A stretch of 27,853 nt of DNA from a virus: positions 1-27,853 of IMG/VR virus record IMGVR_UViG_3300010354_000484; one strand, given 5' to 3'. Made by a program: the position numbers and the translations under genes. Numbering within the stretch: position 1 is the first letter of the stretch; each line of letters starts with the position of its first letter. Of the stretch, positions 121-27,853 are shown in pieces. A model generated the notes under the pieces. The model was not told where the DNA came from and did no database searches. It saw only the letters and a list, made by a program, of their open reading frames with translations.

Positions 121-122
121 AA

Positions 123-2437: not shown

Positions 2438-2443
2438 GGTAAA

Positions 2444-4097: not shown

Positions 4098-4130
4098 CTA
4101 TTGCATAGCTATATCTAAAGACTATTTATA
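4098..4130 (-). promoter_or_regulatory. T4-type late promoter (TATAAATA) and leader of the neck operon
   Basis: The exact T4 late-promoter core TATAAATA reads on the minus strand at 4130-4123, immediately after the stop of the 55-aa gene. It lies 25 bases before the ATG of the 114-aa gene. T4 late promoters consist of this single box, recognised by the late sigma factor gp55 with the sliding-clamp coactivator, with transcription starting about a dozen bases downstream. The short leader would then contain ATG CAA TAG directly followed by the true ATG. It should drive the 114-aa, 160-aa, gp13, gp14, gp15 and gp16 genes. Confidence 0.75.
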
Positions 4131-4485: not shown

Positions 4486-4494
4486 AATGAATTT

Positions 4495-7400: not shown

Positions 7401-10400
7401 GACTAAATCTACTTGTTGGATTATTAATATCTCCTAATTTATGGTTTGGAACGCAAATTCTAAAGGTTGCAATTTTTTCACCTCCAACATATGCTTCTAA
7501 TGTTTCTCCAGCAGAGAATACACCAGAAACCATAGAGATTTCAATAAGTTTTGGAACAATATCTACTCCACTAGATCCATCGAAGAATGGATAGTATCTT
7601 GTTAATGGTTTTAATCCGCCTGCAGCAAAAGCAACGTTTCTTGATCTAAAGTGTGTATCTGGATAGCTACTAGTTTTAATAGTCTCAATATATGATCCAT
7701 CAAAACTTCCTGTAATTGTTCTACTACCACCATCAACAAAAATATCTCTAACCCAGTTATCTGATGCAGGTGTTAATGAAATAGCACCATTAAATTCAAT
7801 CATATTGAATGGATTGACATTTTCTACTCTAGATGCGAGTGGTTGTTCTATCCAAGCACTTTCAGTGTAATTCAATGTAATTAAATCACCTGTTTTTCTA
7901 ACGCTAGAATCAAATAAATCAAGATCTGCAGAATAATCTACTGAAGAATAATCTGTTCCCGAAGAAAGAACTAATTCTGGTGTAATCGAATAGTTTTGTA
8001 GAGGGCATACAAGTTCTTTATTGACACTATCTATTGCACATTCTGCATCTGGATCGTTAATGTCTATAAAAGAGCTATCCTTAAAGTCATCAACAAAGAA
8101 TCCAGTTTTAAATCTTGAAAGTCCATCAGCATCTTGTATTTGTAATGATTTTGTATTTAATTCGAGTAAACTTAATGAAGTCGTAACCTCAAGATTTTCT
8201 ATTCTATCTTCAAGCTTTCCAATATCTCTCATTGTATATCGTCTATTGTCAACCAGACGAATTACTGCATCATTTGGATTATACAAATATGGTGGAAGGT
8301 CAATAGTTCCAATATCCATTGCCCCTTCAACATTTGTTGGGTATTTTGGATCTAATGAGGATACACCTTTGATGACTGAGAAATTTCCTAATGCGTCAAG
8401 AACAATGAGATCTTTTCTTGGAAGATAGTAGTCATAAGAAACTAAGGAACTTTCATTTGGAGTAATAATCAAAGATGAATTAGTTCCAGACGAAGCAAAA
8501 TTTCTACTCGAATATGCAAAAGGAGATGCTGATGTGCTTGTAAATACGCTAACAGATGGTCTAAAGTCAAGTGTATCTGAAGATCTTAATCCACTTGGAT
8601 ATAGTGGCATATCTTTAGAAAATCTTTCTGCTGGATAAGATGCAACAGTATATGCATCACCAACATCTGAGGATGGAACTTCATAATAATCATAAATTAC
8701 TAGAAGTTTTCTTGAAGGTATTGAATCTGTTTGGCGTACCAATCTCGAATAGTCATAGTATTGATCTTTATGTCCTTTATTTAATCTGAAATTATTAGTT
8801 ACATCAAGATATGAACCATTGGTAATATTTTGGAGATTTGTTATAATACCAGATTCATCAAAAGTTACAGATTCTCCAACTATAAACTTTTCTTGAGATA
8901 GATAAACGATATTAATTTCTGAAGGAGATGTCGCCTCTACAACTTGTGCAACAGACCCACTTTCTGCACCAATGACTAATTCTCCAACAATTGCATTGAC
9001 ATTTAACCCCAATCCAGAAATAAATGTCAACTTATCAAGAACTGGATCTGAACTATTCAGAGACTCTAATACTTTAGTTATTTTTACAACATCTGGTCTA
9101 TTCAAAGAAATTTCTTTATCTTCTACTCTTAAACCATAATATTCATTTTTTACCAAACCGTTTGAATCGGTTCCAACACCAGATTGAGTTTTATTGATTG
9201 TTAATTTTGAAGATCTAATATAATTTTTTTGTTTTGATATTATAGAATCCTTTACAAGAGAAACATTAACTGTGACATTTGAAGAACTTGTTGATAAACC
9301 AGTAAATGCTACTTCTGCTCCGTCAGAGACTATGGAAACTTGATCACCGGTCAAGTCTTCGATTGTTCCATCAGAATAATGTACAGAATATCTTTCAGCA
9401 TCAAAAGTCTCAAAAAATGCACTTGTTATTCCAATAGATGCGGTAGTAATATTTAATGTTCCGGTTCCGCTGGTTGATAAAGAATTTACTTGTTTTCTAA
9501 TAGATAGATTGGATCCTGAGAGATTTACATTTCCAACATTTGTATGACTTAAAGGTGCATATAATCCCTGATTTTCTTTATTAAATAACTTTGTTGTACC
9601 AATAAAGGCAGGAACTGTTTGATTTGCTGCTGGAAGTGCTCCAGAACAAACATCATTTACGTTTGTTACGGCAACAACTGTAAATGAACGTGCATCTGCT
9701 GCAACTGCACTAACTCTGTTAAAAGTTTCATATGCCAAACCAGATATTTGGTATCTAATAATAGATCCTACCTTCACCTTAGCAAAGGTTTTACCAGGAC
9801 AAGTTACATTTCCTCCAGTTGTGATTGTTAATCTGTCACTAAATCCCAATCCTGGAACTGTGGAACTTTGAGACAAAACAGAATCTGCCATGAAATCCTG
9901 TTGCATACCAGAGAATGATGCATTATCTTGGTATACTGCCTTGATATCATCTACAGAATATTGTGCTACTGCTGTAGTACTTCTTGAGATAGTAATATCT
10001 TCATTAAGAATAATTGATTCTCCAACTAAAAATGTCCCAGAAGTTTGTGTAAGTGATATAGAAGTTCCTGCAGCAGCTGTTACAACATATCCAGTAGCAC
10101 CACTACTTAGACCTCTAACATAAGTAGTTGCGGGGCACTGAGTTGAGTTTAATGACCGATTTACTGTGATAATTGTATAAGTTTGGACATCAAATAAATA
10201 TAAATCCCACTGAGATGCCTTATTTTTGTAAGTATCGTCTGTTAGACTAAATGAGTATACTCTAGCATCACCAATTTTTGTTCCCCATCCTGATGGGGAT
10301 GTTGTACTGGAATCCCTTCTTTGATTGTAAAGACTTACAATATTATTAACATTATTTAATCCAAAATATGGTGTTCCTTGAACATTATTAACTCTTAAAA

Positions 10401-11592: not shown

Positions 11593-13143
11593 TTAGAATT
11601 CCAGAATGATTTTAACGTCTTCTTTTTGGCGAGAATTTCTGTTAATAAGGGGTCGATTGTCAATATAAATTACATCCCCAGATCCTTTATTTATCTCGGG
11701 AGAAGCAAGTCCATTAGTGAATCTTGACCCAAGACTAATAATTTTTGTTCCAGTTGGATTTGTTGTTATTCCTGTAAAATTCAAATCAATTGATCCAACA
11801 AATCCAGATGCAGTTGTCACTGGAGTTGCTGAAGATGAAAAATCTAAAACTTTTGATGCTGTTGTAACTCCAATATAATCAGTTTGATCTAGAGTTGATT
11901 GATTAAAATATAATGATCTGTCTCTAAAGTACTTAAGTACTTTTGTTTCTTCGTCGTATGATGCAACAAATCCAAGTGCTGTCCCACCAGTAACACTTTG
12001 TCTTATCTTGTCTCCAACACTAATTGTTCCCGTTGTTGATGTAAATTTGAGTGCATATAAAGAAGAAAACTCATTCTCAGTAAATGTTGATGTTGATCCA
12101 ATTGATGTTGGATTTTTTAAAATTCCAATCTGAGAAAATTTTGTATCAATTGGGAAATCTTTTGTGGAATCGTCAAATCTTGCATAAACTAAAACTTTAT
12201 CTGCACCTAACTCCTTATAAAGATCATACCCATGACCTTTAGATGGTGGAATAATTGGAATTAATTTTGCAAAATCTGCAGAAGCATTTGTATTGATCAA
12301 ACCAAGATCCACCATTCCATAAGTATATCCTTTTCCTCCAGAAGAAATTACTGCATTTGTAATTTCACCACCAACAACATCGATGATAACTCTTCCGCCG
12401 CTACCATCTCCGAGAATATCTACTTCTTGACCCAATCCCCCAGAATAACCGGACCCACCATTTTCAATATAAACTTTTTTAATCTGATTATTATTTACCG
12501 ACGAATCTCCATTTGACCTGACTGCTTCAATTTGATTATCAGTAGATGTCTGCCAGTTATTCGGTAATGAAATATATTCAGTTGAGTCAAATTTGATAAT
12601 ATCACTTGGAGAAACTGTAAATAGATATTTCCAAAGATAACCATCTCCACTCTCACCAGCTCTTGATGGTTCTAACGTTGTAAATAATGGCTCATCTTGA
12701 GATGCATTACCTGTGGTGTTTATACCAGAAGATCCATTATCAATACAAATATAAACACCATAATTTTCATTCATCACATAATAATTTGCATCATAAAGTC
12801 TCGATGCTTGAGTTATTGGTGATGGTGAGTCAATACTATAATCATGTCTGTACATTTCATATCGAGTACCTTTAGTCCAATTAACTCTTCTAATTAATCT
12901 TCGTACATTTAAACTGGTGACTTTTTTTCCAAAAAGCATGATATCACCAGAATGGTTGAGATTATTTGTATTGTCAATTGGATTTGGGGTGTTGGTATCC
13001 CAATCAACTGCACCGCCAAATCCAACACGTGTTGGATTTGGAAGACCTAAGAAAACATAATAAGAATTGTTTGCATTATCAACTGTTTCTATAAAATTAT
13101 TCGCATTTAAAATTCTAAATTGATCCGTTACAATGGCTGCCAT
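11593..13143 (-). CDS. gp8: Baseplate wedge subunit gp8
   Basis: The match to T4 gp8 is visible at conserved points. The N-terminal AAIVTDQFRI corresponds to T4 RAIVTSKFRT, and SGDGYLWKYLFTVSPSDIIK corresponds to PGDGYVWEYLFEIPPDVSIN. The end, GDVIYIDNRPLINRNSRQKE and then VKIILEF, corresponds to GEMIYMENRPPI...INILFTF. In T4, gp8 is a dimer within each of the six baseplate wedges, bridging gp7, gp6 and gp10. This copy has 516 aa against 334 in T4. The extra material includes a Gly-Tyr module (residues about 225-275, GGSGYSGG and GGKGYTYG) and a segment around 375-410 (GDKIRQSVTGGTALGFVASY) resembling one in gp14. A TATAAATA promoter lies 20 bases before the ATG; the ribosome-binding site is weak (GTGGATA). 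The next gene starts three bases after the stop. Confidence 0.93.
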   Translation of the reverse strand: MAAIVTDQFRILNANNFIETVDNANNSYYVFLGLPNPTRVGFGGAVDWDTNTPNPIDNTNNLNHSGDIMLFGKKVTSLNVRRLIRRVNWTKGTRYEMYRHDYSIDSPSPITQASRLYDANYYVMNENYGVYICIDNGSSGINTTGNASQDEPLFTTLEPSRAGESGDGYLWKYLFTVSPSDIIKFDSTEYISLPNNWQTSTDNQIEAVRSNGDSSVNNNQIKKVYIENGGSGYSGGLGQEVDILGDGSGGRVIIDVVGGEITNAVISSGGKGYTYGMVDLGLINTNASADFAKLIPIIPPSKGHGYDLYKELGADKVLVYARFDDSTKDFPIDTKFSQIGILKNPTSIGSTSTFTENEFSSLYALKFTSTTGTISVGDKIRQSVTGGTALGFVASYDEETKVLKYFRDRSLYFNQSTLDQTDYIGVTTASKVLDFSSSATPVTTASGFVGSIDLNFTGITTNPTGTKIISLGSRFTNGLASPEINKGSGDVIYIDNRPLINRNSRQKEDVKIILEF

Positions 13144-13178: not shown

Positions 13179-16100
13179 TTACCCTAGGTCTTTTCTCAGA
13201 GATCCATTGTTTCTCAGACCAAAGTCTCTTCTCTGTATTGTTGGGAAGGTTGATAGTCCAACATTCATGGTATATCCAGTAACACCAATAGAAATTGGAG
13301 ATAATCCTCTATTAAATCCACTCAATCTTCCCCAAGAGAATCTACCAAGAAGATCTCCAGTGGAAGCAATGCCAACAATAACTGATCCAGAATCAATATT
13401 TGTAATTATTTCAGCATTTTCAGTTGATTTTGTAATTGAGTGGATATAATAGATATTATCTAAGAAAGTTGTACCGATACCAACAACCGCACTATCATCA
13501 GAATCTACAGAGGTTACCCCATTGCCAACATGTGTATTATGAATATAAATTGGATATCCAACCTCCAATCCAGTAAAGTTTGAACCTGGATTTTTGAGAT
13601 TCAATTTAAGTGCCAATGGATGACTACCAGTTCCAGTAGTTGTACCGATTCCAGTGATTATTCCTGCAAACCCTTCAACTGTGGTAATATTAGTTATATT
13701 TTCTTTGTTGAATTGTGGAGTTGATACGAGAACAATAGGTGCTTGAGTATAACCATAACCTGGATTTGTAATGGTTATTGGTGCTGTCAATGATCCATTG
13801 GTAATTGCAATTGTTGCAGATGCTGTGGTTCCAATTCCAACTCCAACATTTTCTGGTGTTGCAAAAGAAATTTCTGTAGAAACACCAATATATCCAGAAC
13901 CACCAGATACAATACTAAGTGATGAGATTGTTCCACCAGCACCAATAGATGCAGTTACTTTTGCAGTTTCTAATTCTGTTTGTGGAATTATGATTCCACC
14001 AACAGATTCTATAGTTATCGAGGACTCATTTTCTTCATAATTAAAGAATTGTGCATCATCAACAAACAATTCAGTATCAGCATTTGTAACATTTTTAATG
14101 ATTCTGCATGTTGGATAAACAAGAGCCTCTATAGAGTCTCTAGACTTATAAACTTTTTCACCATTGATAATCCTATCAATTTTTTGCTTTGTCCAACTTA
14201 ATGGGCGATAATTTGCATCATCAATACCTAAACCATTATATGAGTTGGTTTCTAAAATATCTGATGCTGGAATACTAAAAATAGTCCTATTTTCTTGTGA
14301 TACTGAACCAGAAATAGATGGGGAGCTATCAAGTTTTACAATATCACCAACTTTTACTGTTTCTGCTACGTTTACAGAAACACTATCAACATTTTTTGTT
14401 CCATTGTAGAAGAATATAACAACACTATCTTCTGGATCTGGTGCAGTGGAGAATATAAAAGAAGTACCCCCTGTAAATTCATATCCTTCTCCAGGAACTT
14501 GGAGAACATTATTTACATAAATCAATAATAAATTACCCAAATCGATGAGGGATGAATCTCTATCATTTTTATTGGTCTCAAAGCTAAGTAGTTGTCCAGA
14601 GAAATAAAGTGGGAATCTTCTTCTTATACCATCTTGTAGATCTTTAATAGAATCAATATAATCAAATTCCCCAACTTCCCATGAAGCTATTTTGTCAGTA
14701 AATGTTTGAAGAACTGTTATTTCAAAATCACTAATAGGATTAGCCAATCTTCCATCTGTTACAAGTCCAACTGGTTTGAAGACATCTCCAACTTCGAATC
14801 CATATCCAGGTCTTGAGATCTTAAAGTCAGTAACCTGGAATAAAGATCCTGGGGCAACTGTTTTACTTGTTGGAATTGTTCCAGTATCAATAGTTGTTGT
14901 TATAATTCCAATATAACTATTGATTGCTGAGGCAACATTAGCACAATCTGTTGAAGTATAAATTCCAGCAACGCCAGAAGTATCGCCAATTACTGTAAGG
15001 TCAAATACTTGCTCTAAGTTTGAATATCCACCAATTGTTATTGGTGTATTTGTCATTGCCTCGATAGCAAGATCCTTTACCTGTTCAAATGCATAAATTG
15101 ACTCTTCTTCTTCACCTTCTAGATAATTTCCGGTTGCATAGACATTTGCAGCATCATATACTTTATCGTTACCACCAAATCTCAATCCATAAGTTATACC
15201 AGAAAGAACGGTCTTAATGTCATCGGAACATTCCGAATTGCCACCAGGTACAGAGAATCCTGGGAATGCTGCAAGCATTCTTCCAACGGCAACATCAGCA
15301 ATCAATTGTGCGTTGCTATCAATCAAGTTTGCTCCATCATAAAAAGTTCCATCGTAGTTAATATTATCATTTGCTCCAACTTTAAGTGAAATTAAAGCAT
15401 TTGAACCAGTGGCAGTAGTAGAACCGATTCCTAATCTAGAAACACCAACTACAGATAGATTTTCATATGATGGTTCAGAAATATCAATCCTAGTGTTAGT
15501 TGATGCATATCCAGAACCAGCATTATCAATAGTAAATATCAAAGTTCCACCAACACCAACAACGGCACTGATCTGAGCAGCATTACCAGTTGGGGATGTT
15601 ATTGCAATAGAAACGTTATTGTTATAATATCCAGATCCATAGTTGTAATCGTGCCACTCTAGACCAACTGTACAGATGCCGCTACCAACATAAGTATGGG
15701 CGATAGTAGAAATACCACCATTGACTGTTACAGATGTTCCAGAGGTTCCTGTAAGTGCCTTATAAATTCCTCCAGTTGGACCAGCACCAGGGTATGGGAA
15801 AATAGTTGTTGTTACACCAACAATAGCAACACCACCACCAACATAAGTGTGTGCAATAGTAGAAACTCCAACATTAAGAACAAGTGATGTTCCAATGCTT
15901 CCCGTTCTTAGTGGGAATACGTCATAGGTATCTCCAAGGGTATTTGCACTTGCACCGGGATATGGGAAGAATGAAGTTGTAATACCAATAGTCGCTGTTC
16001 CACCAGAGACATAAGTGTGGGCAATAGTAGAAATTCCACCATTAACTACAATTGTTGTTCCAGAAGTACCTGTAAGAACTCTATAAACATCATATGTGTT

Positions 16101-19100
16101 ACCAAGTGTTCCATGACTTCCGCCTGGATATGGGAATATTGAAGATGTGATACCAATAGTCGCTGTTCCACCAGAAGCATAGGTGTGTGAAATAGTTGAA
16201 ACGCCGACATTAAAGACTAATGATGTGCCAGAAGTGCCTACAATAGTTCTATAAACATCCCAAGTACCACCTAAAGTATTTGAACTACTTTGTGGATATG
16301 GATCACCATAATCATCAAGTCCTGCTGGATAAGGGAACTTAGTGGAAGAGAATCCAATGTGTTCGGAAGTGCAGGATAATTCAATATCAGCAAGTCTTAC
16401 ATAATCACCAACATCTAGACCATGTTCTGCATCAAGAAAGACAGTTGCGATACCAGAAACCTCATTGTACTCAAGATTTGTTACATTATAAGTGGCAATT
16501 CCTGTCCAAGAGTTGCATGAGAATTCTAAATTGGCAAGTTTTACATAATCACCAACCTCTAATCCATGATTTGCATTAGTAATAATTGTTGTAATTCCTG
16601 TAGATTCTGTATAATCTGCTGCAGTTACATTATAAGTCGTAATACCAGTCCAAGAATCACATGAGAATTCTAGACCAGATAGTTTAATGTAATCTCTGTT
16701 TTGAATTAGACCATGTGGTGATGCAAGAGTAATAGTTGCAATTCCAGTTGACTCAGTATATACGGCACTAACAACATTAATGCTTTGAACTGCTTCTTGA
16801 GAATTGCACTCAAACTCAAGTCCATATAAACTTAAACTATCACCAACCTTAAGGTTGTGCTCTTCGGATAGTGTGAATGTGCATACTCCAGTTGTATTAT
16901 CATAATTAAATGTTACGATATCAAGAGGGTCTCTATCGGTTGGAAATACTGTTTGTGCGATGGAAACAATAGAACCAATACCACCAGATGCATTAGTAAT
17001 AATTCCAATTTGTGCTGGATATAGTGGTGCAAATCCAAGACCTTGTGTTGCACCAATAGAAACAATAACACCACCTCTTGGCAACTGGTTTTGGTTTACA
17101 TCATACTCAGAAATAACTAGATTTCCATTAGACGAAGTTATTCCTGTAAATACAATACTAGAAATTCCAGAATTTGAAACATAATCATAGTTATTCAATG
17201 GATTATTTTGTGTTGTTGGTGTTTGGAATATTCCATTCAAGAAAACTAAAGAACTGCCAGTTTGAATACCTGTTGTATTCAAACCACCAACATAAGTTGT
17301 ATAAGTTTGACCTAATCCAGTAAAGTTTGACGAAATATCATCAAATATTCTATTATTCGTATAGTCATTTCTTAAATAAACCCTTCCACCAAATACTGCT
17401 CTTTCAAAGTTAAGATTTGACGAATTTCTAATATTGCTAATTTTACCTGTTGGAGCTGCTGTGAAGTGAATGTCTGAAGATACAATGTTATAATTTCCAC
17501 TATAAACTCTTACGGCAGTTCCATCAGTATGTGCAATTGCAACCGTTCCAAGTTGTGCCCTTCTAACTTCAAGATTATAATATGTTCCAACACCAGTTAT
17601 CGCAGCAGTGCTTGATGTTGATAGTCCAACATTTGTAACTCTCATCAATTCATCATCAATCTTTACAATATCTTCTGGTAGAATGTTTTGTATTGATTGT
17701 AATGAGAATATTGTATCATTATCACTTATAGATCCAGAATTTTCATATAATATAGTATTGATAGGTGTATATGCCAATGGATATTGTGCAATTCCATCTA
17801 TTGTAATGAGAGACTTCTCAAGTTTCTTATACATCTCCAATTCGTGAGAATTGCCAGATCCAGCATCCGTAAATGTTACTGCAATACCTGCTTCAGCATA
17901 ATCTTTTCTAGTTGCTAATTTTAACTGGTCATTATCAATTTTTATTGCATATACTTCTGAAGGTAGAATTGTTGTTACTACACCAGATTGTGTTAGTGTT
18001 GCACCAATACTTACGCTAACTGAATTAATTCCAATAAAAGTTGATCTTGGAGTATATGTAAGTCTTTCTCCTGTGCTAAAGAAGTGATTTTTAATTTTAA
18101 TTAATCCAGTATCTGGAACCAAGTAATCTGTGCTAGCAGGATTGAATCTCTTAGAGAATACTGGATATCCATCACTTTTCAATGTAAATCTTGTCTTATT
18201 AGCTCTATTACCATTTACAGCATTATAGAATAATAATTCTAATTGATCTCTTACCTTTCCATATTCTAGCGATGGATAGACATTTTCCAAATCACTAAGG
18301 GTGTAAATTGACTCATTAAATGAACTTATGTTAACCACATCTGTTATCGATGCATCTGGATAGAATAATAACTGTCCATTACTTCCAGAAAATTCTGGTC
18401 CAAAAGTACCAATACCAGAAGTAGATCCAATTGATACAAATGGATATTGTACAACACCACATGTACCATTATTGTTGATTAATAAAACCTGATGTAAAGC
18501 ACTAGTGTCTCCATAAGAAACTCTTACCAGAGATTTAATTGTCGATACTTCCTCCTTGACAAAATTTGCAATTGAAGTTGATGCTGAAGAAACCGAAGTA
18601 TATCTAGATTCATATTTAAATGATCTTTCTGACCCTTCAATTTGACCTTCTAAAATAGATCTATAAGTTCCAAATCCAACAGCAGTTGATCCAAATCCAA
18701 CAACTTTGGATCTAATTAGAACATCTCCATCAAAACCAACGTTTTCATAGTCAATAAAGATATTATCCCCATCAATACGTGATGTGAATGTTCCAATAAA
18801 AGAGTTTGAGTTTGAATCGGTAGATAATGTATCAAGGAAATATTCTGACTGATATGTATTTGTCCCATCATGAGTAATGTAGAGTTCAACAATATTTCTA
18901 AAAACATCTCTATTTTTATCATAGACTTCTGCTGTAACATAATAAGATTCTACATTATCAGTATTTGCACTTATAATTTCAGTGGTTATTCCAACAGCAG
19001 CGTAATTTACCGCTCCAACTAAATTGACAAATCCAACACTAAGTGTAGAAATGCCAACAGTATCACTATTAAATGATGACTTAATAATTTTAATGTCATA

Positions 19101-22100
19101 ATCCGTATCATTTGGATCTAATGGATAGAATCTGAGAGAAGTATTATCAAATTCATCCTTATTTGCTTCAACATCTACAAGTTGTTCGTCAGTATTAAAT
19201 ATAGATGATTTTTCAAAAGTAATAACGTCATTTGGACTTTTAACTACCAGTGCTTCCGTTACTTGAACGTTAGACGAATTTGGATCAATAATTTGGATTA
19301 AATATCTTCCAAAAGAATCATCAAATGGTAGTTCAACATATGGATTTAATGATGATCTTGTATTTGAAAACTGCTGACTAATATCATCAATTTTTAAAAC
19401 TCTATTTGTTCTACACTCAATATAACCAGATAATTTCTTATTTTTTACTTTTATGCGATTTGATCTCGATTCTAGAGTATCAGTATCTACACCAAAATCA
19501 AAATTATTAATGGTATCAACACGTCTTTGATCAATAAAATCAAAAACTGCTAAGGCATCTATAGTAGTTGAACCGATAGAAGCGGCCGCTTCCGATTTAA
19601 CTTCTGTGTCTGAGAAGTTTTTAAGACCAGTTGTGTGTAATAAAGAATTTACTGAACTTGTCGATTCTTCAAATGTTATTGGACTCTTAACTGTATATGA
19701 GAGTGTTTGATAATAATCATTATCTGGAATAACCTGATAATCTTCATTTAATTTTCCAGTATTATCCAACCACCCAAGATCTTTTCTTATAGAATAATTA
19801 ATTTCAAATCTAGCATCATTACTTATAACGCTATCGATTTTTGCTCTTGTTCCACTATAAGTTCCAAGAATATTATCTCCAATATTTAAATTATATCTGC
19901 CAACAGCCTTAATAAAATTGAGTTTTGCATCTGTTACAACCCAATCAGTCTCAAAATAATTATTATTTGATAATTTTAGTAATAGACTATCACCAATTCT
20001 AAATGATGAAGATCCTTTTATGACAGAAAATCTTGGATAATCTTCATATCTAACAATTGTAGCAAAATTTGGAGAAGTTACTGCTATTCCTGCATTTGAA
20101 GTATAATTTGATAAATCAAACTCAACTTCTGCTGGATTTAAATTTCTGTAATCAGATACTGTAAAAAATTCATATTGATGATCTTCAGAGTTGAATCCAT
20201 CTCCAGTAGATCCATATTTTTCAAAACCCTCTACAAATATTTTGTCTCCAACATTAACAACATTAGTAGAAAATCCGACAATTGGTGTCAATAACTTACA
20301 AGTTACAATTCCAGCTCCTTGTGAATATAGTACATTAGTAACTGAGAAACCATTACTATTATTAATTGCTTTTAGAGTGTGTGTCGAAGCATTCAACCCA
20401 TTTGGTGACTCTACAATTTTTATTGATCCTATACTTGATCCATTAATTATTGGTTCAATAATTCCATTATTAATCTTTATACCATCAGAATTTATAAGAA
20501 CTAATTCTGGTGGACTTGTGTAATTTTTTCCTCCAAATTGAAGATCAATACTCGATACAAAATCAGAATCTGTAATAAAGAATGTAGATGGAACTAAAGC
20601 TTGTGGTCTAAGAGTTACATCAGATGGATATTCAAATCCTGGATCTATAATTTGAACATTGTCAATTTTTCCAATATTATATGAACCAGAAAAAACTTTT
20701 GCCCCATCACCAAAAGTTGTGTTAAATGATGAAATGACTGGTAATTTTTTATATCCTGTTCCACCTCCAGTCAACGATAATCTTGCAATTCCCCCAAGAG
20801 CAGTTGTAGAATTTGTTGTGTATGATATATTATCGCATTGTGATTTGTTATAAGTTAAAGATTCTGGTATTTTAGTTAAAGATATTTTAAATTGTGTTGA
20901 ATTTAAATTTGCATCAAATACTTTATATCTTCCAGTATATGTACTTTGATTATAAGAAATTTTAGAAGAATTTTTAACATCTATATCCGATGTTGATATA
21001 AATCCAGATTTTTCTAGGGTATAAAAAAGACTCTGTGGATTATTGGAATTATATTTTAAAGTTACACTTGCTTCAGAACTAATTCCAATTGTACCTACGC
21101 CAATAACTGCAAAATTATTTGTATTTCCTACAGAAACAAATTCATTCTTAAAATCTTTATCATAGAAGAATTTTAAAGAGTATCCAATCAGAGATGAATC
21201 TGATAAGTCAAAGACTAAATCATTGTTGTTTATTATCCTCAATTCTGGATTAACGAGAGATAATTCATGCGACAATCCACCAGTTGAAGCAATACTTACA
21301 ATATTTTGTGGGAATGCAGAGACATCATATAAAGTTTCACATAGAGTAAAATTATTTTCATCCAATACTTTAATATAATAATATCCAGTATCAACACCAG
21401 ACATAACAAGATCGGATGTATAATAAACTTTATCTCCATTAAAGAATCCGTGAGAAACTAAGTTGATAATATCCTTTTCAAGATTTACATTTTCTGATGC
21501 GAAACCAATGGGATTTACAAGTATTTTTGAGTTATTCTCATCAAATTTAATTTTTACGGAAGTTGAGGTTCCTATTCCAATTACTTGATTTGAATTTAAG
21601 GATAGATTAATAGTATCTCCATTTTCAAGTCCATGACTTGTAGAAAGAGAGACAAGAGTTGTTACACGATTTACATCTGCAGTTATTTGGTCATAATCAG
21701 TCCGTATATAATACTCAAAATTGTCTGAACCATTGGATGCAAAGAATAGTCCATTAGTTGTAGTAGTTAATCCAACACTAGTTACTATACCAATCAGATC
21801 ATCAGATTTTTTAATAACATAGAATACTTCTTCCGAAGTTCCTGTTAAAATTGAATTTATTGGTCCTGTCGGAGTATCTTGAACAGATAATGCGGCAGTA
21901 CCAGAGGGTTTCTTTATTAGAACCCTTTCATTAGTTTTAAATGGGTGATTTGGAACTCTAATAGATTGAGTTGGTATAGAAACATTCTCGATAAGATTTT
22001 CACCAATAGCTATAGTTGATTCCACAGATGTGCTGAATCCCACAGAGTTGCCAACACCAATAGATTCGTTAGGATTAAAATATATAAATTTGTTTAAGGT

Positions 22101-25100
22101 TGATTGGAATCTCGGCGTCTTTACTGGAAGAGAAATGTAACTTGGTAAAAGATCTACAGAGGTTGATGCAGTATGTGCTAATCCAGAAGAACCCCTTCTT
22201 ACTCTCAAAATTTTTCTAGTATCAAAACGATTCAAAACTGACAAAATTTCGGATCCAATACGAATTGTGCTTCCAATAGAAATATTTGGTGTAAGTTCTG
22301 AAAGGAAGATGTCGGTAACTACTCCTGCTATTGGAGATGATGGAAGATTTTTGTATAAGAACGTTCTTTCGGAAGAAACGCCAACAATGTAATTTTTACC
22401 GAGAACACCCTTTAAATCAGTACTTATCCCTGTCAAATAAACATTATCATTCTGATTAAATGTATGTGTTGTCGATATATATCCAGAAACCTCATTTTCA
22501 TTATTCCAAACTAGAACAACATCTTCATATTTTATGATCTCCGTATCTAATTGGTTGACGGTCTTTCCTCTTATTAGAGAAACTTCTGCTGAGGCTCCAC
22601 CACCACCAGTTCCAGTATTATCAAATACTGCAAAATCTCCAAGTTTATAATTTGATCCTGGTTCTGATAGAGTTAGATAATCTACAGATCCACTTAATAC
22701 TGATATTACTTTAGATGTTTGATTTGTGATTTCATTAGATTCCACCAAGAAATCACTACCAGAATAAGGATCGGAAACGTTATATGGAAGTGTATTTCTT
22801 ATAATGTTTCCTGAGTTGAAGTCAAAATATTGATTTACAATATAACTATCATCTAATAAATTTGATCTAAACTGATCACCAACAAAATATGGGAATTTTG
22901 GTATAATCTTATTTACTGCTAAACTTGACTCTACGGATACAAAATATGCATATGTTCCCTTTGGAAAATCTGGAGTTTTACAATATCTACCATTACATAC
23001 ATCTAAATCCCCAGAATTATCAAATGTATAATCGTCTATGAAAAATCCTCGACCAAAAGAAGTTGGTCTATTTTCAACATTTGTTATATTTAACGTATAT
23101 CCAGATTGTAAAATTTTAATATCAGAATCGGAATCTTCTGGATCTGAATATCCATATGGACCATAAATTGGATTTCCATCTAAAGCCCATCCAATAATTG
23201 GTGAGTGACCAGAACCACTATCTCCATAATAATTTTTTCCAATATCCGTCGAATATCCGACTACAGAATACTTTAAGTTAGTTATTGACTTTCTTAAATC
23301 AATATCACCAAATCTAGCAAATCTATTAACTGTTAATCCTCTAACAATAGGATCAAGTGCAACATCGGATCCTGGATTTATAATTGTAACACTAGTAGTA
23401 TCATCAACATAGTTAACGCCACCATTTAATATTATTACTTCAGTAATAACATTATTTTGAACAACAGCTCTTAATTTTGCACCAATTCCCTCACCATTTA
23501 CTTTTAGTTCTGGAGTGGAGTAATAATCACGTCCTCCACTTAAAACCTGTACAGATACAATTTTACCTCCTCTTACAAAGGTTTTGATTTGTGCATCTTT
23601 ACCAGTTTTAACTTCATATAATGGTTTCTTATGAAGATTTAAAATGGTTGATCCATATTCAGTACCATTTTCATACAAATAAGTATCGATTATTGATCCA
23701 CGAACTACAGGATATGCACTTACAATTCCGGATATTCCATCTCTAAATCTAACATTCACTTGAACTGAAATATTTGGATATTTGAATACCTGATATCCGG
23801 ACCCAACTGAAGAAAACTTCGCATAATTTTTTCTATCATAATTTGAAGTTATTGTTGCACCTATTCCAGCATCTGCCAATCTAAATTTGTCATTGTCAAT
23901 TTTTATAACATAATACTGAGTGGTGGAGGATAATCCAGAGATACTCCCCCCTTCAGAATAATATTCTACGATATCTTTGTTATTAAACCCATGATTTTTA
24001 AAGTTTACCGAATCATCTAAGGTTGATATTCCTACAGGTTTTACCTTCAACTTTCTATTCGTATATCCATCTCCAGGATTTACTACTTCTATTCCTGTTA
24101 CTGTTTTTTTACTTTCAGAAATTCTAAATTTTTGAATTCCTGAATTACTTTCTGTGGTAAATCCGACAGTATTGATACCTGCTACATAATCAGTTTTTGT
24201 CTTATAGATTCGTATCGTTTTTGGACCGGTCACTTGAGCATAATATACACCATTATGCTCAAGATATTCCCCAACAGCATCATTACTTCCTCTAAATGTT
24301 CCTATACTTATTGGATTATTATCATTAGTCAAATAGACTAGTGCTTGACCACTGACTATGTTGTGATTATTGATAAAGGATAGATCATCATTATCAACGT
24401 CTAAACCACCGCCTTGTGAAGTTGATGCAGCATTAAATTCTATTTCTCGATATCTTCTAGATGTAATTGGTTTCAATATGCATCCAGATCCATTTCCACC
24501 GGTCAACGTTGCCGATATAGCATCGTCAATATCAAAGTCTTGGGGATCAACTAGAACTTCTTTAACAGATCCTTGAACAACTACATTTACTAAAGCAGTA
24601 GTTCCTATTCCTGCAGAAATTTGGATAAAAGGAGGATTAATTACATCATAATTTTGACCAGAGTTTAAGATTTTAACTTCTTCTAATGGACCATAAAAAA
24701 TTCTATCATTAGTTTTATATGATGAAATTTCTACACCATCAATCAAAATACCAATTGTATCCGCTGTTGTTTTTGTTGCAGATCCATATTGAATATCTGG
24801 ATTCAATTTGAATTTCTTAAGAGACTTTTGTGGTCCTATTTGTAGGTTGTTTTGTCTTGATAAAGTAAATGTATGTGATCCAGATCCAGATGGTAGATCT
24901 CCAAATTCGATAAAATCATCTGTCGGAATAAATGATCTTGATGTATAAAGTTTTATTTTATTTGCATCAGATAATACTCTGACATAGTACAACCCTTCCG
25001 CCAATCCTGGTATTTCTTGAGACTCTGGAGAATAGTAGACTTCATCTCCGGTTATAAATGGAACATCAGTGTCAAATGATATTACAGAATATTTTAAAGT

Positions 25101-26879
25101 TGCTTGATTATATTCTTGAATTCTATCTCCATTTGCTTCTAAAATAGTTCTCGATAGTATTTCGGTTTCAATATTATATGATGGTAATGAATTTGATGCA
25201 ACATACATGTATTCATCATTCTCATTATATACATTTTGAATATCGCATGTTATAATATCATTTCCATATTGTAATTCGGCACCAATACTAGACGCTTTCT
25301 TTAAATTTCTTCTAATATCATAAAGTAATGATGAATTATACGTAAATCCACTTAAGTTATCTAAAAGAATTTCTTTTGTTGCTTTGTTAATACTCGAAAC
25401 AATAGCATCGGAATACTCAACTATTTGAGTGTTCCTTCTGAGAATTTCTACCTCATCTCCAACTTTTAGAGAAGATTTGTCAATATCAGAATATAGTGAG
25501 AATGTTGATCCTGAAATATTTTTTACTTGGTATCTTACCGATGTGTTATAAATCCAGGAATTTGAAAAAATTTCTTTTTTAGTTTTATCTTCATCTGGAT
25601 TTTTAATTATTTCACCAAGATTTTTAACATAAATTACTTCTCCCTCATCTGTAAAGTTAATATCGGATACTGGGACAAATTTAGATAAAACTCCTGTTAT
25701 TCTTAATTCAACTGGTCTGGTTAAATCAGCTTCTTCATAACCGACCATTACTTCATCAAAACGTATATCAGATGTTGATGGAATTTCAGTTTCAATTCCA
25801 CTACATCCTAAGAACTGATTAATAGTTCTATCTGTATATGTTATTGTATTTCCTGCAGAAAATACAGTTCCAGAATTTGGAAATTCTACAGTAGAATCTA
25901 CAGTAATTACTTGAGATCCAGCAGGAACATCTCCAATTACTCTTGTTCTACCAGGAACATTGAAAGTTCCCTCAATTAAAGCATTCTCACTAAATCCAAC
26001 AAATAATGATAGTTTGTAATATGTAAGTCCACTATTTGATAAAATTTCTACCTCAGAAACCGATGCTTTAGTGTCTGGGTCTGTAGATTTTCTAATTGTT
26101 TGACCAATTAGTTTGAGTGGATCTCCAGAAATTCTTTCTGCAATAACAATTTCTCTTCTAATAAATTCAGAAGCAGATGGTTTAATTAGATATTCTTCTA
26201 AATCAATAACTCTTGGAGTTACTCCATATAGAACATTAAATAGTATTCTAAAAGACTCTTCAGTACCTTTAGATGCATAAAAAGCATGTGCCTCTTTGAT
26301 AAAGTTGCTTACATCCAGTTCTGGTACAAAATCTAGATCTTCTAGTCCAGGAGTAAGACTATATTTAACTTTTTTATAAAATTCTTTTAAAAATAAAGAA
26401 CTTAAGTTTATAACTCTTGACCCGGCAGAGTGAGAGTCTGCCTCAGAAGTGCTGAATACTATTTCACCCTTTTCAATTTCAGAATGGTATGTTGTTATTC
26501 CACTAAATCCACGAACACAACCGATAAAGGTGTTACCTTGTATTTCGGAATATGTAATAATTTCATCATCTATTTTTAATAAACCATAATTTCTTGGAAA
26601 TCCTTTTGTATCGCCAATTTCAATAGTATCAGATGTGTCAGTAATATCATATTCTAGTGTTGACTCTCCAGTAATGACTTCTGGTGTCAAATTATCTAAC
26701 TTTAAATATTGATCTAAATTCTCTACAATATCAATTGATCCGCCAGGAGCTTCTTGAGAAATGTAATATTGTTTTAAAAACTCTGCTGCTTTTGGAGATT
26801 CTGAAAGAATAAATTCTGGAAGCTGATTTTCTAGAATTTGATGAATTTTTACTCTAGTTTCAAAACCCGTTTTTATCAT
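13179..26879 (-). CDS. Giant 4566-aa mosaic virion structural protein in the gene 7 position
   Basis: One uninterrupted frame encodes roughly half a megadalton. It sits between gp6 and gp8, where T4 has gp7 (1032 aa, wedge initiator), so a baseplate role is inferred; I see no direct similarity to T4 gp7. Order: N-terminal head (about 1-280, HQILENQLPEFILSESPKAA); repeated HGF-GD-YYVIKID and Gly-Tyr modules; YHYH-like domain (about 1215-1310); block with DNDYYQTLSYTVKS (about 2320-2350); FLNGIFQTP module (about 3200); 48-aa tandem repeats (about 3330-3505); 56-aa tandem repeats (about 3510-3735); Asn/Ala-rich domain (about 3846-4000); YVNNVLQVPGEGY motif (about 4120); and a conserved-looking end (RFSWGRLSGF, ISIGVTG). 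Start: AGGA 4 bases before ATG, one base after the gp6 stop. Similar N- and C-termini are, from memory, found in cyanophage structural proteins. Confidence 0.88.
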   Translation of the reverse strand: MIKTGFETRVKIHQILENQLPEFILSESPKAAEFLKQYYISQEAPGGSIDIVENLDQYLKLDNLTPEVITGESTLEYDITDTSDTIEIGDTKGFPRNYGLLKIDDEIITYSEIQGNTFIGCVRGFSGITTYHSEIEKGEIVFSTSEADSHSAGSRVINLSSLFLKEFYKKVKYSLTPGLEDLDFVPELDVSNFIKEAHAFYASKGTEESFRILFNVLYGVTPRVIDLEEYLIKPSASEFIRREIVIAERISGDPLKLIGQTIRKSTDPDTKASVSEVEILSNSGLTYYKLSLFVGFSENALIEGTFNVPGRTRVIGDVPAGSQVITVDSTVEFPNSGTVFSAGNTITYTDRTINQFLGCSGIETEIPSTSDIRFDEVMVGYEEADLTRPVELRITGVLSKFVPVSDINFTDEGEVIYVKNLGEIIKNPDEDKTKKEIFSNSWIYNTSVRYQVKNISGSTFSLYSDIDKSSLKVGDEVEILRRNTQIVEYSDAIVSSINKATKEILLDNLSGFTYNSSLLYDIRRNLKKASSIGAELQYGNDIITCDIQNVYNENDEYMYVASNSLPSYNIETEILSRTILEANGDRIQEYNQATLKYSVISFDTDVPFITGDEVYYSPESQEIPGLAEGLYYVRVLSDANKIKLYTSRSFIPTDDFIEFGDLPSGSGSHTFTLSRQNNLQIGPQKSLKKFKLNPDIQYGSATKTTADTIGILIDGVEISSYKTNDRIFYGPLEEVKILNSGQNYDVINPPFIQISAGIGTTALVNVVVQGSVKEVLVDPQDFDIDDAISATLTGGNGSGCILKPITSRRYREIEFNAASTSQGGGLDVDNDDLSFINNHNIVSGQALVYLTNDNNPISIGTFRGSNDAVGEYLEHNGVYYAQVTGPKTIRIYKTKTDYVAGINTVGFTTESNSGIQKFRISESKKTVTGIEVVNPGDGYTNRKLKVKPVGISTLDDSVNFKNHGFNNKDIVEYYSEGGSISGLSSTTQYYVIKIDNDKFRLADAGIGATITSNYDRKNYAKFSSVGSGYQVFKYPNISVQVNVRFRDGISGIVSAYPVVRGSIIDTYLYENGTEYGSTILNLHKKPLYEVKTGKDAQIKTFVRGGKIVSVQVLSGGRDYYSTPELKVNGEGIGAKLRAVVQNNVITEVIILNGGVNYVDDTTSVTIINPGSDVALDPIVRGLTVNRFARFGDIDLRKSITNLKYSVVGYSTDIGKNYYGDSGSGHSPIIGWALDGNPIYGPYGYSDPEDSDSDIKILQSGYTLNITNVENRPTSFGRGFFIDDYTFDNSGDLDVCNGRYCKTPDFPKGTYAYFVSVESSLAVNKIIPKFPYFVGDQFRSNLLDDSYIVNQYFDFNSGNIIRNTLPYNVSDPYSGSDFLVESNEITNQTSKVISVLSGSVDYLTLSEPGSNYKLGDFAVFDNTGTGGGGASAEVSLIRGKTVNQLDTEIIKYEDVVLVWNNENEVSGYISTTHTFNQNDNVYLTGISTDLKGVLGKNYIVGVSSERTFLYKNLPSSPIAGVVTDIFLSELTPNISIGSTIRIGSEILSVLNRFDTRKILRVRRGSSGLAHTASTSVDLLPSYISLPVKTPRFQSTLNKFIYFNPNESIGVGNSVGFSTSVESTIAIGENLIENVSIPTQSIRVPNHPFKTNERVLIKKPSGTAALSVQDTPTGPINSILTGTSEEVFYVIKKSDDLIGIVTSVGLTTTTNGLFFASNGSDNFEYYIRTDYDQITADVNRVTTLVSLSTSHGLENGDTINLSLNSNQVIGIGTSTSVKIKFDENNSKILVNPIGFASENVNLEKDIINLVSHGFFNGDKVYYTSDLVMSGVDTGYYYIKVLDENNFTLCETLYDVSAFPQNIVSIASTGGLSHELSLVNPELRIINNNDLVFDLSDSSLIGYSLKFFYDKDFKNEFVSVGNTNNFAVIGVGTIGISSEASVTLKYNSNNPQSLFYTLEKSGFISTSDIDVKNSSKISYNQSTYTGRYKVFDANLNSTQFKISLTKIPESLTYNKSQCDNISYTTNSTTALGGIARLSLTGGGTGYKKLPVISSFNTTFGDGAKVFSGSYNIGKIDNVQIIDPGFEYPSDVTLRPQALVPSTFFITDSDFVSSIDLQFGGKNYTSPPELVLINSDGIKINNGIIEPIINGSSIGSIKIVESPNGLNASTHTLKAINNSNGFSVTNVLYSQGAGIVTCKLLTPIVGFSTNVVNVGDKIFVEGFEKYGSTGDGFNSEDHQYEFFTVSDYRNLNPAEVEFDLSNYTSNAGIAVTSPNFATIVRYEDYPRFSVIKGSSSFRIGDSLLLKLSNNNYFETDWVVTDAKLNFIKAVGRYNLNIGDNILGTYSGTRAKIDSVISNDARFEINYSIRKDLGWLDNTGKLNEDYQVIPDNDYYQTLSYTVKSPITFEESTSSVNSLLHTTGLKNFSDTEVKSEAAASIGSTTIDALAVFDFIDQRRVDTINNFDFGVDTDTLESRSNRIKVKNKKLSGYIECRTNRVLKIDDISQQFSNTRSSLNPYVELPFDDSFGRYLIQIIDPNSSNVQVTEALVVKSPNDVITFEKSSIFNTDEQLVDVEANKDEFDNTSLRFYPLDPNDTDYDIKIIKSSFNSDTVGISTLSVGFVNLVGAVNYAAVGITTEIISANTDNVESYYVTAEVYDKNRDVFRNIVELYITHDGTNTYQSEYFLDTLSTDSNSNSFIGTFTSRIDGDNIFIDYENVGFDGDVLIRSKVVGFGSTAVGFGTYRSILEGQIEGSERSFKYESRYTSVSSASTSIANFVKEEVSTIKSLVRVSYGDTSALHQVLLINNNGTCGVVQYPFVSIGSTSGIGTFGPEFSGSNGQLLFYPDASITDVVNISSFNESIYTLSDLENVYPSLEYGKVRDQLELLFYNAVNGNRANKTRFTLKSDGYPVFSKRFNPASTDYLVPDTGLIKIKNHFFSTGERLTYTPRSTFIGINSVSVSIGATLTQSGVVTTILPSEVYAIKIDNDQLKLATRKDYAEAGIAVTFTDAGSGNSHELEMYKKLEKSLITIDGIAQYPLAYTPINTILYENSGSISDNDTIFSLQSIQNILPEDIVKIDDELMRVTNVGLSTSSTAAITGVGTYYNLEVRRAQLGTVAIAHTDGTAVRVYSGNYNIVSSDIHFTAAPTGKISNIRNSSNLNFERAVFGGRVYLRNDYTNNRIFDDISSNFTGLGQTYTTYVGGLNTTGIQTGSSLVFLNGIFQTPTTQNNPLNNYDYVSNSGISSIVFTGITSSNGNLVISEYDVNQNQLPRGGVIVSIGATQGLGFAPLYPAQIGIITNASGGIGSIVSIAQTVFPTDRDPLDIVTFNYDNTTGVCTFTLSEEHNLKVGDSLSLYGLEFECNSQEAVQSINVVSAVYTESTGIATITLASPHGLIQNRDYIKLSGLEFSCDSWTGITTYNVTAADYTESTGITTIITNANHGLEVGDYVKLANLEFSCNSWTGIATYNVTNLEYNEVSGIATVFLDAEHGLDVGDYVRLADIELSCTSEHIGFSSTKFPYPAGLDDYGDPYPQSSSNTLGGTWDVYRTIVGTSGTSLVFNVGVSTISHTYASGGTATIGITSSIFPYPGGSHGTLGNTYDVYRVLTGTSGTTIVVNGGISTIAHTYVSGGTATIGITTSFFPYPGASANTLGDTYDVFPLRTGSIGTSLVLNVGVSTIAHTYVGGGVAIVGVTTTIFPYPGAGPTGGIYKALTGTSGTSVTVNGGISTIAHTYVGSGICTVGLEWHDYNYGSGYYNNNVSIAITSPTGNAAQISAVVGVGGTLIFTIDNAGSGYASTNTRIDISEPSYENLSVVGVSRLGIGSTTATGSNALISLKVGANDNINYDGTFYDGANLIDSNAQLIADVAVGRMLAAFPGFSVPGGNSECSDDIKTVLSGITYGLRFGGNDKVYDAANVYATGNYLEGEEEESIYAFEQVKDLAIEAMTNTPITIGGYSNLEQVFDLTVIGDTSGVAGIYTSTDCANVASAINSYIGIITTTIDTGTIPTSKTVAPGSLFQVTDFKISRPGYGFEVGDVFKPVGLVTDGRLANPISDFEITVLQTFTDKIASWEVGEFDYIDSIKDLQDGIRRRFPLYFSGQLLSFETNKNDRDSSLIDLGNLLLIYVNNVLQVPGEGYEFTGGTSFIFSTAPDPEDSVVIFFYNGTKNVDSVSVNVAETVKVGDIVKLDSSPSISGSVSQENRTIFSIPASDILETNSYNGLGIDDANYRPLSWTKQKIDRIINGEKVYKSRDSIEALVYPTCRIIKNVTNADTELFVDDAQFFNYEENESSITIESVGGIIIPQTELETAKVTASIGAGGTISSLSIVSGGSGYIGVSTEISFATPENVGVGIGTTASATIAITNGSLTAPITITNPGYGYTQAPIVLVSTPQFNKENITNITTVEGFAGIITGIGTTTGTGSHPLALKLNLKNPGSNFTGLEVGYPIYIHNTHVGNGVTSVDSDDSAVVGIGTTFLDNIYYIHSITKSTENAEIITNIDSGSVIVGIASTGDLLGRFSWGRLSGFNRGLSPISIGVTGYTMNVGLSTFPTIQRRDFGLRNNGSLRKDLG
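15670..16350 (-). repeat. In-frame tandem array A: about four 168-bp (56-aa) units
   Basis: Within the giant gene, units carrying FPYPG, a Y-D-V-Y/F strand, GTSGT, VSTIAHTYV and GGTATIGIT follow each other. The marker TATGGGA on the plus strand recurs at 15793, 15961 and 16129, exactly 168 bases apart. A related TAAGGGA at 16330 shows that the first-translated unit carries an extra 11 codons. The two central units share an identical 26-base stretch (15982-16007 and 16150-16175). Confidence 0.88.
16355..16880 (-). repeat. In-frame tandem array B: four 144-147-bp (48-49-aa) units
   Basis: Each unit reads roughly Y-x-E-x-(S/T)-GIAT, then HGL-x-x-GDYVKL, then LEFSCNSWTGIATYNVT. Equivalent points on the plus strand fall at 16401, 16545 and 16689 (144 bases apart) and at 16836 (147). 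The unit translated first is the most divergent, with FECNSQEAVQ in place of FSCDSWTGIT. The array directly precedes array A in the protein. Confidence 0.87.
22940..23240 (-). other. YHYH-like domain inside the giant protein
   Basis: Residues about 1215-1310 of the 4566-aa protein contain GHSPIIGWALDGNPIYGPYG, then LDVCNGRYCKTPDFPKGTYA and YFVS. DG-x-PIYGPYGY, LD-x-CNGR and a G-T-Y ending are the hallmarks of the YHYH family (proteins of unknown function in bacteria and eukaryotes). The eponymous histidines are replaced: GTYAYF stands where GTYHYH is expected. Two cysteines flank NGRY. Confidence 0.75.
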
Positions 26880-26880
26880 T

Positions 26881-27853
26881 TTATCCTCTCTTTAATGCCC
26901 CGTTTGAATAACTTGAAGTGACTTTAAATCCAACGCCGGATATCTGTTCTCCAGATGTAATAGTATCTTTAACCATATTTATCTTACTATTTTCAACATT
27001 AAAGTTTAAGTATAAATCCTTTAATCCAATAACATCATTTGATTCTGGATATGCCTGAACCTCAACTATATTATTTGTTTTTGTTGTTCCTGATATATTG
27101 AGAGTTGTCAGATTGATCTCACCCTTAATGTAATCAACAGTTCCAGCAGACTTTACAACAACAACTGGTTCACCCAAATTCCCAGACTCTTTAACTATTG
27201 AAATAATTCCTTTACCACTACCATCAAGATCTCCATTAGAATTTTTATTTGGAACATCAGTAAGAAAAACTTCACTGGAATCTCCAATTAGAGTAAATCC
27301 AGTACTCTTAATATTATATCCTTTTGGATTTACATGGAATTGGTTACCAAAGCAAAGCTCATATTGAGCATACTGGTTGATAGATGCTTTCAAATTTCTT
27401 CTGATTATAACCCTCGTAATATTTGATGTGACCGATTCCTCAACACTATCGACAAGTTTTACAATTTTACTATATCTAAATCTCCCACCAAATTTATTTA
27501 CATCTGTAGATTGTGAATATGTGTTTATAGTATTTGTTATTTTAGTTTTTAAATCCTGTATATTTGTTACCTTTGATGGGTTATAGTATACATAACTATC
27601 AATTTCGACAAACAAAACTTGAAGGTCTATAATTTTTTGATTTATTCCAGAAAGACTATATCCCTTTAATTTTGAAAGGATTTGTCTTTTATCGAAGTCT
27701 GAAATATAATCACCATTTTTTGGTTTAATACTAATAATAACATTACCATACTCCGGTGGATCAAGTTCTTCTCCACCAACTATAGAAACAGATTCTGTAT
27801 TTGGATAAATTTCTCTTATAAGTGCCTCATAATCACGTGAAGTTACCGCACGA
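26881..27853 (-). CDS. gp6: Baseplate wedge subunit gp6, C-terminal 323 aa (runs off the right edge)
   Basis: The frame is open from the right edge to the TAA at 26883-26881. The first visible residues are RAVTSRDYEALIREIYPNTE, then SVSIVGGEELDPPEYGNVII and SIKPKNGDYISDF. This RAVT-DY-YPN-SV-GGE-PP-YG-V-I-IKP pattern is characteristic of gp6 of T4-like phages, which belongs to the baseplate J-like group. In T4 gp6 (660 aa) forms the inner ring joining the six wedges and couples baseplate opening to sheath contraction; about half of that length is visible. The rest (residues such as YVYYNPSKVTNIQDLKTKI, and a C-terminal GFKVTSSYSNGALKRG) shows no break. A TTG at 27615 is an internal leucine, not a start. 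Its last codons contain the AGGA ribosome-binding site of the giant gene, which starts one base after the stop. Confidence 0.93.
   Translation of the reverse strand, partial: RAVTSRDYEALIREIYPNTESVSIVGGEELDPPEYGNVIISIKPKNGDYISDFDKRQILSKLKGYSLSGINQKIIDLQVLFVEIDSYVYYNPSKVTNIQDLKTKITNTINTYSQSTDVNKFGGRFRYSKIVKLVDSVEESVTSNITRVIIRRNLKASINQYAQYELCFGNQFHVNPKGYNIKSTGFTLIGDSSEVFLTDVPNKNSNGDLDGSGKGIISIVKESGNLGEPVVVVKSAGTVDYIKGEINLTTLNISGTTKTNNIVEVQAYPESNDVIGLKDLYLNFNVENSKINMVKDTITSGEQISGVGFKVTSSYSNGALKRG

Follow-up and report, generated by a model that had tools for sequence, protein, structure and literature searches.

gp7 in T4-like phages

In the T4 baseplate, the core of gp7 pairs with gp6. T4 gp7 (1032 aa; structures 5iv5 and 5hx2) carries about 700 residues ahead of this core and about 100 between its two halves, while compact gp7s occur in Xanthomonas phage X1 (498 aa), in ACP17 (482 aa), in pf16 (523 aa) and in the Pelagibacter phage Mosig (874 aa). 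One published account states that cyano- and pelagimyophages lack T4 gp7 and that VrlC takes its place (PMC7029224). Large structural proteins, gp7 among them, have diverged to the point of falling into several clusters (PMC3037559), and this divergence may explain why gp7 in cyanophages was overlooked earlier.

Giant gp7s are already known, and in cyanophages they are the rule. At least 13 phages have one in the slot between gp6 and gp8, and several of these proteins carry the annotation gp7 or baseplate wedge initiator. Slot lengths in named cyanophages range from 3274 to 7312 aa: P-SSM4 7312, P-SSM2 5195, Sf-CH8 4878, S-T4 4749, P-HM1 4446, S-CAM7 4314, P-TIM68 4307, ACG-2014f 4225, DSL-LC03 4107, Bellamy 4067, SynMITS9220M01 4067, S-SRM01 3895, S-RSM4 3515 and Syn1 3274. 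The product of this slot has been detected by mass spectrometry in virions of cyanophage S-CREM2, with 91 unique peptides (PMC10665884); the slot coordinates in that phage equal about 1937 aa.

A giant gp7 in the window

The window, meaning the whole stretch of DNA analyzed here, is a 27,853-base IMG/VR record, a metagenomic fragment that can be read upstream as far as gp6 only. It contains the following genes.

26881..27852, minus strand: gp6, C-terminal part, cut by the window edge (phrog_219, E 1.8e-78)
13179..26879, minus strand: giant gp7 (baseplate wedge initiator), 4566 aa (ATG start, stop-free frame, phrog_2885 match)
11593..13143, minus strand: gp8 (Pfam Phage-Gp8, E 1.4e-10; phrog_438, E 5e-161)
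4495..11589, minus strand: VrlC-like/DUF4815 baseplate protein, 2364 aa (PF16075, E 7e-61)

The initial annotation had described a single stop-free frame of 4566 aa, more than four times the length of T4 gp7 and directly flanked by gp6 and gp8. All of this is borne out: the frame lies on the minus strand with an ATG start one base after the gp6 stop, it is 4.4 times as long as the T4-type gp7, and both neighbors are confirmed by their profile matches. In reading direction the order is the gp6 C-terminus, giant gp7, gp8, the VrlC-like gene, small tail proteins and neck proteins (phrog_211, 460, 227), with the VrlC-like gene in the position of the VrlC/VriC-annotated gene in relatives. The predicted product is 495 kDa with a pI of 4.6. 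It matches phrog_2885 ("baseplate wedge subunit", profile length 4179) with 3680 bits, residues 2-3837 aligning to profile positions 2-3610, and a search with its first 600 residues finds 462 phage records, every one from a cyanophage or a marine virus. At the nucleotide level, megablast of the gene returned a 56-59-bp match to S-CAM1 and nothing more.

The window protein is thus another member of the cyanophage giant gp7 kind. It shares the slot, head, scaffold (residues 1-3300), YHYH domain and C-terminal cap with the members in P-SSM2, S-SRM01, S-T4 and Sf-CH8 (phrog_2885), whereas its variable bay has its own mix of HGL repeats, FPYPG repeats and one phycobiliprotein-like module. New here are the way the core is split, the single bay that varies and the phycobiliprotein-like module it holds.

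One observation concerns a neighboring gene. The gp14-like neck protein (Hc2, 490 aa; window 965-2437, minus strand) contains an insert that matches profiles of giant baseplate proteins (phrog_701, 2885, 708), and the same small beta modules seem to be spreading through several virion proteins. BLASTP of giant gp7 against the other window proteins gave no match at 1e-3.

The head matches T4 gp7

Four segments of the protein bear on its identity.

26682..26855, minus strand: N-terminal helical segment of the gp7 core, residues 9-66, with an NQLPEF motif (compact-gp7 profile, hmm 5-46)
26394..26675, minus strand: small beta domain, residues 69-162 (VIA to a JBD30 baseplate chain)
25686..26339, minus strand: gp7 core 1, residues 181-398, corresponding to about T4 gp7 728-843 (PDB profile, hhalign, VIA, compact profile)
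19407..19877, minus strand: gp7 core 2, residues 2335-2491, corresponding to about T4 gp7 860-910 (NDYYQxLSYxxKS...LxHxxGxKNFxD; compact profile, iE 1.1e-7)

The head was searched as a profile of 73 rows spanning residues 1-640. Against the whole PDB, only two distinct sequences appeared at E < 5, both of them T4-type gp7, with residues 193-223 aligning to T4 gp7 728-758 (E 2e-4). This match depended on the profile, since phmmer with the head as a single sequence found nothing in the PDB. Aligned by hhalign to five Straboviridae gp7s, residues 191-308 fall on 729-826 over 98 columns with a probability of 97. The AF2 model of the head is of moderate confidence (pLDDT 72.8, pTM 0.32), and its top Foldseek match is the T4 baseplate chain 5iv5_BJ (E 3e-3). 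VIA places residues 238-398 of the model on 763-843 of this chain (Z 9.4, rmsd 2.2 over 80 residues) and finds the same place in 5hx2_A, which is named gp7 (Z 8.1). The sequence and fold matches therefore both indicate adjoining stretches of the same T4 protein. Core motif 1 (DFYxSKGxxxSxKxLFxxLYxExV) matches T4 gp7 in sequence and in fold, so the homology that the initial annotation had read from gene position, and had staked on the fold of the head, is upheld.

Just ahead of core 1, the small beta domain superimposes on a JBD30 baseplate chain (VIA Z 10.6, rmsd 1.9 over 76 residues). Residues 445-527 gave many matches to EF-Tu-type barrels, which we took as a common small barrel.

The gp7 core is split

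A profile built from the compact gp7s of X1, ACP17 and pf16 matches every giant and every T4-type gp7, always in the same order: the N-terminal segment (in giants), core 1 and core 2. In the window these matches fall on residues 9-66 (iE 0.005), 181-387 (3e-9) and 2335-2491 (1.1e-7). The first of them is weak in the window but reaches 1e-6 to 5e-8 in several relatives, again in the same order. The gene directly between gp6 and gp8 in the window thus carries what marks a T4-type gp7, namely core motif 1 with the beta segment that follows it, together with a core 2 downstream that is recognized through the compact-gp7 profile, its direct match to T4 being weak.

We ran the core 1 and core 2 models separately on 2719 ORFs and 661 reversed decoys. 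Core 1 picked out one ORF each at 267 of 269 loci, with reversed decoys at 0.09 or worse. Core 2 picked out one ORF each at 142 loci, a count that reflects the many loci ending ahead of core 2; the ORF was gp7 every time, and the best decoy stood at 0.017. Taken on its own, the link of core 2 to T4 gp7 is weak. E values against T4-type gp7s range from 5e-4 to 0.08, direct hhalign gives a probability of 4.8, and the core 2 profile has no match in the PDB. The AF2 model of core 2 is of low confidence (pLDDT 61.7), and its VIA matches (best Z 6.2), mostly PilZ and protease beta barrels, were set aside.

Mosig provides a natural intermediate, since residues 171-397 of its gp7 align to core 1 and 521-694 to core 2 of several giants. 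X1, ACP17, pf16 and Mosig all have the three core segments in the same order as the window protein but lack the scaffold and the bay. T4 gp7 shares with the window protein the slot, core motif 1 with the next beta segment, a weak core motif 2 and the order of these motifs. Unlike in T4 gp7, the core of the window protein begins at the N-terminus and its halves stand about 1,980 residues apart, and the ancestral core appears from these alignments to have been pulled apart. Given the order of the core segments in compact, giant and T4-type gp7s, the roughly 700 extra residues of T4 precede the core, while the cyanophage extras lie between and after its halves. Of the other queries used, X1 gp7 against viral contigs returned one locus, and a short T4-like peptide served only to locate a T4-type gp7/gp8 region.

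Proposed role and other readings

We conclude that the window protein is very probably the gp7 orthologue, or wedge initiator, of a cyanophage-type T4-like myovirus, built from a split core, a scaffold and a bay. Residues 9-66, 181-398 and 2335-2491 are the ancestral core, which by analogy with T4 would pair with two gp6 chains and nucleate each of the six wedges. The about 1,940 residues between the core halves and the about 2,075 after them would make up an extensive scaffold at the periphery, built mostly from small beta domains, with a single exchangeable bay and a conserved cap at its C-terminal end. Assuming T4 stoichiometry, six copies of gp7 would make the baseplate about 2.3 MDa heavier.

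A different reading makes the frame a polyprotein, in which cleavage separates the gp7 head from a long fiber-like remainder and the wedge is of ordinary size. The size of the product and its modular bay would fit this, as would the separate fiber genes found at the same place in relatives. However, core 2 lies at residues 2335-2491, so that any earlier cut would divide the gp7 core, and no protease site was identified; we regard cleavage as quite unlikely. That cyanophages have no gp7, with VrlC in its stead and the giant ORF an unrelated fiber-like structural protein, is the view that follows PMC7029224, and it could draw on the lack of a T4 counterpart for most of the giant and on the empty single-sequence phmmer search. 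It is now largely refuted and very improbable: profile search, profile-profile alignment and fold comparison all tie the head to T4 gp7, the compact gp7s bridge the giant and T4-type groups, and the window has a separate VrlC-like gene as well, after gp8. Mosig likewise has gp7 and VrlC as separate genes. An assembly artefact fusing several genes, which the metagenomic source and the broken frame of the same gene in the S-SKS1 record might suggest, has a negligible chance of being the explanation given the intact collinear frames in many independent isolates and contigs and dN < dS along the whole compared frame.

The 4566-codon frame is real and under purifying selection wherever it was compared. 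Against contigs L005, L006, L007, L009 and L011 (58-87% amino acid identity, four of them covering about 3300-3630 residues), dN is below dS in each 200-codon block compared. BLASTP aligns residues 1-3304 as one collinear HSP to S-SRM01 gp7 1-3316 (48%) and residues 5-3408 as one HSP to P-SSM2 gp7 (41%). Because residues 1-3300 are collinear with gp7 from ten named cyanophages at about 29-49% identity, the frame is not an assembly join, the artefact that the initial annotation had named as fatal to its reading. The reading of the window protein as a gp7 with a split core corrects the published statement that VrlC replaces gp7: these phages have gp7, its core split by a scaffold of roughly 2,000 residues.

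In the deposited S-SKS1 record (HQ633071; locus L003, 20001-33000), the gp7 frame is interrupted, with 707 aa followed by further open pieces and an unannotated start. Either sequencing errors or real breaks could account for this.

A conserved scaffold and one variable bay

Outside the core, the protein divides as follows.

19878..25685, minus strand: conserved scaffold inserted between the core halves, residues 399-2334 (collinear in 10 relatives, few indels)
22923..23219, minus strand: YHYH domain, residues 1221-1319 (PF14240, 87.9 bits against a cut-off of 25)
16980..19406, minus strand: conserved extension past the core, residues 2492-3300 (alignment of relatives and spacing)
14871..16979, minus strand: variable module bay, residues 3301-4003 (alignment and spacing)
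16341..16916, minus strand: four tandem repeats of about 48 aa, HGLxxGDxVxL type, residues 3322-3513 (self-comparison)
15651..16340, minus strand: four tandem repeats of 51-67 aa, FPYPG...STIAHTYxxG, residues 3514-3743 (self-comparison)
14871..15344, minus strand: helical phycobiliprotein-like module, residues 3846-4003 (PF00502; hhalign with shuffle controls)
13179..14870, minus strand: conserved C-terminal region, residues 4004-4566, ending FSWGRLSGF...GLRNNGSL (alignment of relatives)

When 11 giant gp7s were aligned and scored in 100-residue blocks, there were few gaps over residues 1-3300, mostly gap over 3301-4000, and conservation again over 4004-4566. The spacing from core 1 to core 2 in relatives is 1979-2072 aa (CV 0.02). 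That from core 2 to the bay is 703-1076 aa, the bay itself spans 101-1187 aa (CV 0.82) and the C-terminal part 469-843 aa. The bay is nearly absent from S-SRM01 and from contig L006, and copies of the 48-aa repeat, in varying number, occur in the bays of S-T4, Sf-CH8, P-SSM2 and others.

Self-BLAST of giant gp7 gave no off-diagonal matches, and repeats were sought instead with a Smith-Waterman window scan. In 80-aa windows, self-scores reach 249 inside the two arrays, against at most 88 outside them and at most 60 in shuffled sequence. Clear internal repeats are therefore confined to residues 3322-3743, with weak self-similarity elsewhere.

The initial annotation had pictured many repeated modules accreted between a conserved head and C-terminus. 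Clear repeats are limited to the two four-copy arrays. The C-terminus is conserved as proposed, but so is most of the middle: within the giant-gp7 subfamily residues 1-3300 are a rigidly conserved scaffold, with strong variation in 3301-4003 only. Accretion holds only on a deeper time scale, by comparison with the compact gp7s of about 500 aa. These boundaries, a scaffold at 1-3300 and one exchangeable bay at 3301-4003, can be used for testing a giant baseplate periphery.

The bay would act at the cell surface in the manner of a tail-fiber tip, and it is probably the part of giant gp7 likeliest to meet the host. This is suggested by its variability, its tandem repeats, its modules common to tail-fiber proteins, and the separate fiber genes in relatives with compact gp7. 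In the Pelagibacter and Methylophilales relatives, which belong to the same family (Mosig, L265; Melnitz-3, L266), a compact gp7 of 874-896 aa is followed by separate tail-fiber or fiber-connector genes and then by gp8, and Mosig encodes its fiber functions apart from gp7 in these intervening genes.

The scaffold also contains a YHYH domain, kept by every giant gp7 examined, whose namesake histidines are proposed metal ligands in a family with a predicted hydrolase role (PMC7824862). In the window the position reads YAYF, its equivalence being judged from context, and none of 15 giant gp7s retains YHYH, a single His being kept in one. The metal site has probably been lost in giant gp7s, and with the histidines gone from all those examined, a hydrolase role is doubtful there.

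A phycobiliprotein-like module in the bay

Scanned alone, residues 3846-4003 match PF00502 (Phycobilisome) with 25.3 bits against a cut-off of 22.2 (E 1.7e-5); within the whole protein the score is 18.1 bits. The window's module was the only 1 of 25 aligned modules with a Pfam Phycobilisome match at 0.01, and an NCBIfam scan of the module gave no match. Profiles of 25 and 19 modules searched against the PDB had phycobiliproteins as their top matches (best E 0.012 and 0.0085), and all 47 PDB matches of the 19-module profile were phycobiliproteins, which count as one family.

In an hhalign comparison of 70 modules with 52 host phycobiliproteins the score is 55.9 (probability 95.9, 64 columns), while 120 column shuffles score at most 22 and four unrelated alignments at most 16. 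The score is 42.4 for the subset of modules lacking C-x-R-D and 35.3 with K-C-x-R-D masked. The aligned segment corresponds to about residues 39-104 of C-phycocyanin alpha and includes C-x-R-D in half of the modules. The module differs from phycobiliproteins in its C-terminal half, which has no detectable likeness (score 16, null level), in a second conserved Cys, and, in the window copy, in an Asp in place of Arg86.

In the reverse direction, a phycobiliprotein profile was run on 1761 phage ORFs and 1761 reversed ones. It found 126 ORFs at E < 1, all module-bearing, with no other ORF and no decoy, and its domain matches fell on the module in 50 of 50 cases. The highest scores, up to 51 bits, come from adding up several weak S-RSM4 copies, each of at most 15 bits, and some of the loci had been chosen by Phycobilisome matches, so this search is support and no independent proof. 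Taken together, the profile comparisons indicate that the bay module is probably homologous to phycobiliproteins.

Across 50,697 phage records, the module was located at 845 places in 349, and every one of these is a cyanophage. It is present in 10 of 15 cyanophage genomes and in none of 8 other phages. The frames carrying it are never shorter than 836 aa, and matches number up to 13 in S-RSM4. It is also found in tail-fiber proteins, including the giant tail fibers of several phages. A search of open-licence papers found no description of this module, which would link the adhesion proteins of cyanophages to the phycobiliproteins of their hosts.

Does the module carry a bilin?

The bilin-ligand motif C-x-R-D (Cys84, Arg86, Asp87) is present in 36 of 70 modules, the window copy reading C-S-D-D. 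Among 23 phages searched, cpeT (T-type, bilin-lyase-like) was found in 5, all module-bearing; within cyanophages this association (5 of 10 against 0 of 5) falls short of significance. In S-RSM4 (L493), S-PM2 (L494), Sf-CH11 (L495) and Syn1 (NC_015288 19941-26291), cpeT precedes a giant module-rich tail-fiber gene by about 1-1.5 kb on the same strand; in P-HM1 and P-SSM4 it is not upstream of such a gene. Genes for bilin reductases (PF05996) do not follow the distribution of the module: P-SSM2 and Mosig each carry one and lack the module.

Two cysteines of the module, Cys39 and Cys133, tend to occur together: 37 modules have both, 24 have neither, and 6 and 3 have one alone (Fisher 3e-10, a value inflated by shared descent). 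This is the co-occurrence that a disulfide pair would give, and it counts against a bilin.

Loading with bilin is thus favored by C-x-R-D in half of the modules, by cpeT adjoining the fiber gene and by the presence of the module in all five cpeT carriers, and opposed by the paired cysteines, by reductases that do not track the module and by a window copy without Arg86. On balance, it is rather unlikely that phage CpeT-type lyases attach a bilin to some of the phycobiliprotein-like domains that cyanophages would display on baseplates and tail fibers. The module offers a testable answer to an old puzzle, namely why bilin genes are kept by cyanophages, even by those of hosts without phycobilisomes.

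In the S-PM2 record (NC_006820; L494, 10654-15481), the 11.3-kb short tail fiber CDS has many tRNAs annotated within it, on the same strand. This annotation is probably misplaced.
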